Shown piece by piece: positions 23,257 to 23,938 of a DNA stretch of 64,000 nucleotides. Source of the stretch: a virus; the IMG/VR virus record IMGVR_UViG_3300031963_000080, positions 1-64,000 of that record; one strand, written 5' to 3'. The notes beneath the pieces were generated by a model. That model saw nothing but the letters and a program-made list of their open reading frames with translations. It had not been told where the DNA came from and searched no databases. Every line of letters begins with the position of its first letter. Within the stretch, counting starts at the first letter, position 1. Both the position numbers and the translations under genes were made by a program.

Positions 23257-23296
23257 TGGCGTCTCAGGTTGGATTCGAACCAACGACCAACTGCTT
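23257..23296 (-). pseudogene. 3' half of an interrupted tRNA
   Basis: Reads AAGCAGTTGGTC, a perfect T-arm GTTGG-TTCGAAT-CCAAC, acceptor strand CTGAGAC, discriminator G and an encoded CCA. Its acceptor strand is the exact complement of GTCTCAG at 23901-23895. The segment codes the last residues of the nuclease gene (VVGSNPT), which stops inside it. Confidence 0.85.
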
Positions 23297-23710
23297 ATCA
23301 GGAATACTAAGATAATCTTCAGCCAAGTTTATACCAATTTTTTGATTATTCTTGGGAGGAACTAATCTTAGGACAAATGTGTTACTACAATCATTTGGAT
23401 TTATGTAGTAACACATATCTGTGTCTGGACAGTAGACGCACATTACATCAATTTCATTTTTATCATAATTTTGAGTATGTGTTCCATTTTTATCTGTCCA
23501 GCAAGTCCTGAATGGAACTTCTATTTTACCATCTTTTGATGCTCTATACTTGACTTGAACTCTTAAAAAGTTTCCATCTTTGTAGGCAACAAGATCAAAG
23601 GCAGAATGTTCTGTATGAGGAGTAAGAATTAAGTATCCTTTCTCATATAGATCAAGTTGTGCTTTTAGGACTCCAAGATCTCCTTTGTTTTTAGTATGAT
23701 GTTCCCTCAT
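23264..23710 (-). CDS. PD-(D/E)XK homing-type endonuclease inserted in a tRNA
   Basis: 148 aa. Start region HTKNKGDLGVLKAQLDLYEKG and the core SAFDLVAYKDGNFLRVQVKYR give the Asp and QxK of the PD-(D/E)XK fold in the arrangement of the I-Ssp6803I type, which is encoded in a tRNA-fMet group I intron of Synechocystis. Four Cys follow. The last codons lie within a tRNA 3' half. An exact late box TATAAATA is 22 bp upstream, recalling late expression of I-TevI in T4. It probably cuts tRNA genes lacking the insertion (inference). Confidence 0.78.
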   Translation of the reverse strand: MREHHTKNKGDLGVLKAQLDLYEKGYLILTPHTEHSAFDLVAYKDGNFLRVQVKYRASKDGKIEVPFRTCWTDKNGTHTQNYDKNEIDVMCVYCPDTDMCYYINPNDCSNTFVLRLVPPKNNQKIGINLAEDYLSIPDKQLVVGSNPT

Positions 23711-23731
23711 ACAAGTAACGATATCTCTTAT

Positions 23732-23739
23732 TATTTATA
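23732..23739 (-). promoter_or_regulatory. Late promoter TATAAATA for the endonuclease
   Basis: Exact late-box match, start expected about 15 bp before the ATG at 23710. It lies inside a small inverted repeat (CTCTTATAAATAATAAGAG). Confidence 0.72.
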
Positions 23740-23764
23740 AGAGTAGCAACTTACCAGTATGTTA

Positions 23765-23866
23765 CTCAGAACAACCAACAGGCTCACCTGGAATCGAACC
23801 AGGGACATTCGCTTAGAAGGCGAAGGTTATATCCGCTTAACTATGAGCCCAAGCGGTTGTTCTAAG
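23765..23866. repeat. 12-bp inverted repeat bracketing tRNA-Arg
   Basis: Arms at 23765-23776 and 23855-23866 are complementary over 12 bp with one G-T wobble (minus strand CTTAGAACAACC and GGTTGTTCTGAG). They enclose the complete tRNA-Arg, and the outer arm overlaps the last two anticodon bases of the interrupted tRNA. Could be the edge of an inserted cassette or an RNA stem. Confidence 0.85.
23779..23850 (-). tRNA. tRNA-Arg (anticodon TCT), intact copy inside the insertion
   Basis: Acceptor GGGCTCA/TGAGCCT, D-arm GTTA/TAAC, anticodon arm TTCGC-CTTCTAA-GCGAA, T-arm CCTGG-TTCGATT-CCAGG, discriminator G. 72 nt. It has the same anticodon as the interrupted tRNA around it but an unrelated body. 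Confidence 0.93.
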
Positions 23867-23901
23867 AAATCAGATACTCTATCCAAGTGAGCTACTGAGA
23901 C
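23865..23901 (-). pseudogene. 5' half of the interrupted tRNA, anticodon TCT
   Basis: Acceptor GTCTCAG, TA, D-arm GCTC-ACTTGGATA-GAGT, then TCTGA and T-T-TCT, giving anticodon TCT (Arg) at positions 34-36. Continuation after the anticodon is not a tRNA. Joined to 23257-23296 it would give a nearly complete cloverleaf with CTG/CAG in the anticodon stem. Confidence 0.82.
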
Positions 23902-23909
23902 ATAAGACA

Positions 23910-23938
23910 ATCATAAGACATTTATCTTAGATTGTCAA
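23910..23938 (-). promoter_or_regulatory. Promoter for the split tRNA/tRNA-Arg unit
   Basis: TTGACA (23938-23933), 17-bp spacer, TATGAT (23915-23910), then the leader TGTCTTAT directly joined to the tRNA 5' half. Confidence 0.88.

Follow-up and report, generated by a model that had tools for sequence, protein, structure and literature searches.

The tRNA array of a T4-like cyanophage raises the question of why a tRNA gene should be split at its anticodon by an insert that itself holds a complete tRNA gene for the same anticodon. Homing endonucleases residing in needed genes are usually tolerated by way of a self-splicing intron or intein that hides the damage. The element described here, found within the 64,000 nucleotides of IMG/VR record IMGVR_UViG_3300031963_000080 that were analyzed (the window), would represent a second solution in a virus, in which a spare copy of the gene is brought along. 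We regard it as very probable that it is a natural home-and-rescue element, consisting of a homing endonuclease together with a substitute tRNA, and not a self-splicing intron.

The array lies on the minus strand in the order tRNA-Leu(UAA), tRNA-Ile(UAU), split tRNA-Arg(UCU) and tRNA-Leu(CAA) (Table 1). An initial annotation of the window had recognized a GTCTCAG 5′ half and a complementary CTGAGAC 3′ half of a single tRNA-Arg(UCU), and both were located as claimed, the first reading GTCTCAG...TTTCT and the second AAGCAG...CTGAGAC (23296-23261) followed by GCCA (23260-23257). Joining the two halves in silico, one of the checks that it had proposed, yielded a tRNA-Arg(tct) of 77 nt with CCA as called by ARAGORN. 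Its placing of the split at the anticodon was confirmed and could be refined to the 3′ edge, the insertion point being observed between positions 36 and 37, or 35 and 36, as one T is ambiguous.

Table 1. Positions of the features of the interrupted tRNA-Arg(UCU) locus in the window, and of nuclease-only inserts at other loci.
Feature	Position	Strand	Basis
Outer tRNA-Arg(UCU) 5′ half, positions 1-36	23865..23901	-	sequence; intact counterpart in S-WAM2
Outer tRNA-Arg(UCU) 3′ half, positions 37-73, with CCA	23257..23296	-	sequence; ARAGORN on joined halves
Sigma-70-like promoter of outer tRNA (TTGACA, 17 nt, TATGAT)	23910..23938	-	sequence
Mobile cassette, 568 nt (566 nt common to all copies + AT)	23297..23864	-	same ends and length in window, L001, L008, L009, L036, L038
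Inner (substitute) tRNA-Arg(UCU), intact	23779..23850	-	62.5 bits to RF00005; no lesion
Bracketing-stem left arm CTTAGAACAACC	23855..23866	-	sequence
Bracketing-stem right arm GGTTGTTCTGAG	23765..23776	-	sequence
T4-type late promoter word TATAAATA, ahead of nuclease gene	23732..23739	-	sequence; comparison
PD-(D/E)XK (PDDEXK_5) homing endonuclease gene, 148 aa	23264..23710	-	profile, sequence and fold matches
Nuclease-only loci	L004 1429-1964 (Enterococcus phage EFP01), L051-L054, L057, L060, L065, L067, L076, L077, L084, L104, L163		

The cassette comprises, in order, one arm of a stem, an intact tRNA-Arg(UCU), the other stem arm, the late promoter word and an ORF of 148 aa. The complete tRNA-Arg(TCT) and the late promoter previously noted inside the insert were both verified, the latter as a T4-type word present in intact cassettes and also in the tRNA and nuclease units of other phages. 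The 12-bp inverted repeat that had been reported around the inner tRNA is present, but in the window it pairs at 11 of 12 positions as DNA, reaching 12 of 12 only as RNA with one G.U, while in two relatives it is perfect. The 12-bp stem, which closes on the inner tRNA and is predicted to fold stably, may insulate that tRNA or aid its processing. Since only 14 nt of the cassette precede the inner tRNA, with no promoter among them, the inner tRNA is presumably transcribed from the promoter of the broken gene, which is now the only apparent promoter ahead of it.

Other repeated elements were seen in this part of the window. Near-copies of a module, TTGACAAT...TATAATTGTCTTAT, lie ahead of the Leu, Ile and outer Arg tRNAs (24173-24137, 24052-24014 and 23940-23902), looking as if each of these three successive tRNAs had its own promoter. 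Short spacers ahead of phage tRNAs (L010-L012, between the nuclease and the next tRNA; window 22790-22720) share TAAGTC...ACTTAC/ACTTCC words that look like a recurring structured leader. A wcaG RNA is also found in the window at 19910-19806 on the minus strand (68.4 bits against a gathering score of 42).

On the evidence of its sequence and a structural model, the predicted protein is a PD-(D/E)XK homing endonuclease of the I-Ssp6803I type, with cleavage itself being inferred. The ORF matches PF11645 PDDEXK_5 (4.6e-38, 130.8 bits against a cut-off of 26.1) and, in sequence, I-Ssp6803I (2ost; E=7.8e-6), with 2ost also being the best fold match of the AlphaFold2 model (pLDDT 84; Foldseek E=6.7e-10). 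As such the I-Ssp6803I-like nuclease that had been proposed is borne out by profile, sequence and fold, with no match to an unrelated family. Residues D39, Q52 and K54 (D...QxK) are invariant or nearly so in family alignments, their catalytic role being known from I-Ssp6803I. The C-terminal ~11 aa of the protein are encoded by the 3′ half of the outer tRNA, again as the initial annotation had stated, and are predicted with very low confidence; in Synechococcus phage Sf-FR1 the nuclease tail is read from a different tRNA and the tail is therefore incidental. The gene sits at its presumed target, the anticodon region of a tRNA, as membership of this group would require.

Besides the window, the cassette was found in the isolate Sf-FR1 (L001), the only isolate genome to carry it, and in several IMG/VR metagenome contigs. 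The 566-nt core has equal length and ends in six copies (Table 1), and its recurrence with unchanged ends in different contexts excludes chance. The surrounding tRNAs are of the types GTCTCAG (window), GCCCCTG (L008, L009), GCCCCGT (L036-L038) and GCTTCAG (L222), with the cassette found in at least three further tRNA-Arg genes of related viruses. In all four outer types insertion is observed at the same nucleotide and always in tRNA-Arg(UCU). Not every copy is independent, L008 being grouped with L009 and L036-L038 among themselves. Acceptor arms are still matched in the GTCTCAG, GCCCCTG and GCTTCAG types, which would therefore have been separate functional alleles before insertion, as expected if homing keeps the flanks of the recipient. 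Downstream of the cassette in L036 (2412-2600) lie scrambled tRNA pieces. One is a 3′ half whose acceptor arm is foreign; another, a Val-like tRNA, ends in the acceptor ACGGGGC, which would match the outer 5′ half.

The search for phages with a matching uninterrupted tRNA-Arg, likewise proposed at the outset, identified intact counterparts in S-WAM2 (L030), S-CAM4 (L031) and Sf-CH11 (L029). The tRNA-Arg(TCT) of S-WAM2 is 88% identical to the joined outer tRNA of the window, with similar uninterrupted genes being present in S-CAM4, S-RSM4 and Sf-CH11. Sf-CH11 and Sf-FR1, both from one sponge species, have a common gene order around the locus. In Sf-CH11 the tRNA-Arg is followed directly by tRNA-Val, while at this position Sf-FR1 has a 12-nt tRNA remnant, CAACTGCCTTCT, then the cassette and tRNA-Val, with no outer halves besides this remnant. 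No empty site for the GCCCCTG-type tRNA was found by exact-pattern matching in viral contigs, and phage records gave only ~80% relatives. The stretch CCTTCTTAG in Herod (L003) was considered as the same left end of the element and rejected as coincidence; it is common to AM24 and Bestia, in which no tRNA-Arg or PD-(D/E)XK gene is annotated at that stretch. Solo relatives of the inner tRNA without the nuclease occur in S-8S53 and in Synechococcus virus S-PRM1, where the inner-type tRNA-Arg(UCU) (L453 903-974) is unannotated in the record.

The outer and inner tRNAs differ in their state of preservation. Using a lesion score that counts stem mismatches and invariant loop positions, 133 of 144 distinct uninterrupted viral tRNA-Arg(UCU) genes were free of lesions (7.6% having at least one), whereas at least one lesion was observed in all six split outer tRNAs and none in the inner tRNA. 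In the window, the two mismatches are in the anticodon stem, with T27 and A31 unpaired with T43 and G39; U55 is lost in L008 and L009, the latter having an additional D-stem mismatch; L222 has one D-stem mismatch; and in L036 and L038 the acceptor arm does not pair. The difference between split outer and uninterrupted genes (Mann-Whitney, p ~6e-13) is inflated by kinship (L008/L009, L036/L038), while counting only the four contexts at 7.6% each still gives ~3e-5. Some outer tRNAs, those of L008 and L222, are damaged only lightly. The inner tRNA is identical in L001, L008 and L222 and shows 0-1 changes over 74 sites between the window and the other cassettes, compared to 37-38 differences over 412 sites for the nuclease (dN/dS ~0.15). 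In L222 the nuclease has been deleted, with the inner tRNA unchanged, both stem arms intact and the outer halves persisting. From the outer lesions, the invariant inner tRNA and the arrangement in L222 it is therefore inferred that the inner tRNA is under selection and the outer tRNA is not needed.

In keeping with this, seven tRNAs were detected in the complete genome of Sf-FR1, of which the sole Arg(UCU) is that of the cassette, while Sf-CH11 has one detected tRNA-Arg(UCU), uninterrupted. The expectation that a supplied substitute leaves the native copy redundant and decaying is met by the outer lesions, by the sole copy in Sf-FR1 and by the retention in L222. A need of the phage for this tRNA is plausible because AGA and AGG account for 63% of the Arg codons in long ORFs of the window. 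The suggestion of a self-rescuing cassette, with which the initial annotation had ended, is supported by these data and by the fixed-end recurrence.

The nuclease is linked to tRNA-Arg(UCU) across its family. Nearly every relative above ~145 bits is seen to adjoin or split this gene, the exception in that range being EFP01. In phage tRNA and nuclease units the tRNA-Arg(UCU) lies 22-77 nt upstream of the nuclease, and in about 30 Nostocales genomes (L131-L159) a PDDEXK_5-like gene, more distantly related and mostly with a C-terminal extension, lies ~72 nt downstream of an intact tRNA-Arg(UCU). In the tree, the cassette nucleases (100/96) are placed beside the phage tRNA and nuclease units (99/97) with the intron-borne set next, so that the pairing of tRNA and nuclease probably preceded insertion into a tRNA. 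Because the closest nucleases adjoin or sit inside tRNA-Arg(UCU) genes, it is almost certain that the anticodon arm of this gene is the target, with cleavage remaining an inference. At least 120 viral-contig stretches contain an exact copy of the 28-nt sequence GAGCAACTGCCTTCTAAGCAGTCGGTCG, which lies over the target arm, and these would provide an ample supply of targets.

The resistance of the inner gene is likewise inferred. The inner and target sites have a common 11-bp core, GCCTTCTAAGC, and since the sequence flanking this core differs, resistance of the inner gene is plausible. The anticodon arm of the inner tRNA, TTCGC/GCGAA, is a common one in viral tRNAs, and the inner-arm sequence was rejected as proof of resistance, the arm TTCGCCTTCTAAGCGAA being found in at least 119 viral-contig stretches. 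In L012 the linked tRNA carries ATTGC/GCAAT, the arm that is interrupted in L008. As the inner arm is common and the linked tRNA of L012 is target-like, the arm sequence alone cannot prove resistance.

Taken together, a cycle can be proposed in which a phage with the cassette meets one with an uninterrupted tRNA-Arg(UCU), and the enzyme would cut that gene beside the anticodon. The break would be repaired from the cassette-bearing genome via the conserved tRNA sequence on both sides, with the 568-nt cassette being pasted in. The outer tRNA would be destroyed and its promoter would now transcribe the inner tRNA-Arg(UCU), which, having the same anticodon on a different body, would keep the decoding of AGA and AGG and whose gene the enzyme would probably be unable to cut. 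With its own tRNA supplied by the element, the outer halves would be free to decay, and the nuclease could later be lost with the inner tRNA staying. Homing by break repair and expression of the inner tRNA are both inferred.

It might instead be argued that joining of the outer halves still takes place, through splicing of an unknown kind or through cutting and ligation, giving nested genes and two arginine tRNAs per locus. This can draw on the outer stems, which are largely kept in L008 and L222, on the introns that Lak megaphage tRNAs are reported to have, including one that may encode a tRNA (PMC6784885), and on the nuclease-only inserts that split other phage tRNAs with ends forming a covarying pairing. 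Against it, every split copy carries lesions, the outer tRNA appears dispensable given the mismatched acceptor arms of L036-L038 and the absence of outer halves in Sf-FR1, and the ends of the cassette do not extend the anticodon stem as those of the nuclease-only inserts do. We consider the joining of the outer halves improbable, and a little more improbable the proposal that both nested tRNAs are made, the outer one through a joining that is not of the group I type, which would make the cassette a new kind of intron coding for both protein and tRNA.

The nuclease-only inserts deserve description in their own right. At least 13 other loci (Table 1) were found in which a PD-(D/E)XK ORF alone, in 462-484 nt, splits tRNAs such as Asn(GTT) after the anticodon. 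These inserts have no tRNA inside and no room for an intron core. Pairing between the two ends of each insert lengthens the anticodon stem considerably, in a helix whose sequence covaries between phages. Matching 5′ and 3′ insert ends pair at a mean of -16.0 kcal/mol compared to -7.9 for mismatched ends, and in 9 of the 13 loci they beat every mismatched partner. That matching ends pair far better points to a conserved RNA structure, and the inserts are possibly a class of tRNA intron other than group I. A second tRNA-Asn(GTT) was not detected in EFP01.

A further possibility is that a free-standing nuclease and a neighboring tRNA were rearranged into a tRNA gene once, by undirected shuffling of the array, and then spread by recombination in the flanks. 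Phage tRNA arrays are highly rearranged, chimeric tRNAs are present in L036, and units of tRNA-Arg and nuclease without outer halves are common in related phages, all of which would be in keeping with shuffling. What such an origin does not account for is that the ends are identical and the insertion is at the same nucleotide in four outer types, always in tRNA-Arg(UCU), the very gene that the relatives of the nuclease adjoin or occupy, and undirected shuffling is for this element an unlikely explanation.

There is next to no likelihood that the insert is an intact or degraded group I intron enclosing the tRNA and nuclease, with the outer tRNA restored by self-splicing, a reading already contradicted by the anatomy of the cassette. 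Bacterial relatives of the nuclease do occupy inserts of roughly 620-700 nt, one or two nucleotides away, in tRNA-Arg(UCU) genes of Gammaproteobacterial, Acidobacteriota and Chloroflexota records (the chromosomal loci L112-L116, L118-L123, L125, L127 and L128). These have a P3 helix spanning the ORF by RNAalifold, P8 and GACTA/TAGTC motifs, and would be group-I-like, an identity that rests on reading the motifs without a call by Rfam RF00028. The RF00028 search suggested by the initial annotation gave no Intron_gpI match in the window at the gathering threshold or in the insert at E<=10, a negative result that is weak alone since the model also missed the bacterial inserts. In addition, there is no room for a P3-P8 catalytic core, which was not found in the insert at E<=10 in Rfam. 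The bacterial inserts carry ~200-290 nt outside the nuclease, on both sides, whereas the cassette has 154 nt on one side, before the nuclease, 72 of them being the inner tRNA, and none after it. The insert also terminates in ...CC[CT]GAT before AAGC, ending in T and not G. With no core match, no room and this terminus, the cassette was rejected as a group I intron.

The reading of the cassette as a homing endonuclease with a substitute tRNA would explain two nested phage tRNA genes for one anticodon, give a reason other than codon demand for the turnover of phage tRNAs, and suggest that the nuclease acts on competing phages by cutting their tRNA-Arg(UCU) gene. The open-licence literature searched gave no description of a homing endonuclease that brings a complete substitute tRNA with it. 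According to a 2014 review, every group I intron known at the time in phages was located in a protein gene, although phages have many tRNA genes (PMC3984707). Lak megaphage tRNAs have introns, one of which possibly encodes a tRNA, with the mechanism left open (PMC6784885). This resembles the cassette in the possible nesting of a tRNA in an interrupted phage tRNA gene, but there the host gene is tRNA-Thr(TGT) and no homing endonuclease is mentioned in the text of the paper (PMC6784885).

Free-standing homing endonucleases of phage tRNA regions include SegB of T4 (PMC13096335; Brok-Volchanskaya 2008). SegB is encoded beside tRNA genes, cutting tRNA genes and biasing the inheritance of the tRNA region in mixed infection, much as is inferred for the cassette nuclease, and the linkage expected of such an enzyme, to a tRNA of its presumed target kind, is met by the 22-77 nt spacing in the phage relatives. 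However, SegB is a GIY-YIG enzyme that lies beside its tRNAs, while the cassette nuclease is inside its target and carries the replacement. The nearest precedent is provided by the mobile ORFs of fungal mitochondria, which replace the 3′ end of the gene that they enter, as in atp6 of Allomyces and atp6, atp9, cox2 and nad3 of Glomus (PMC3630166). There too an element with an endonuclease supplies replacement sequence and makes the native part redundant, but the fungal ORFs bring part of a protein gene, in frame, whereas the cassette brings a whole tRNA gene with a different body, in a phage and with a PD-(D/E)XK enzyme.

The related enzyme I-Ssp6803I (2ost) is encoded in the group I intron of the Synechocystis tRNA-fMet and travels within that self-splicing intron, whereas the cassette nuclease lacks an intron and is accompanied by a complete substitute tRNA, the gene entered being tRNA-Arg(UCU). 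With the group-I-like inserts of bacteria, this one target would be occupied in both ways, with an intron and with a spare tRNA. In synthetic home-and-rescue or cleave-and-rescue gene drives, the nuclease that disrupts a needed gene also brings in a recoded copy of it (PMC7968924; PMC7951863). These were engineered for use in insects, and the cassette would be their natural counterpart, following the same logic in a virus.
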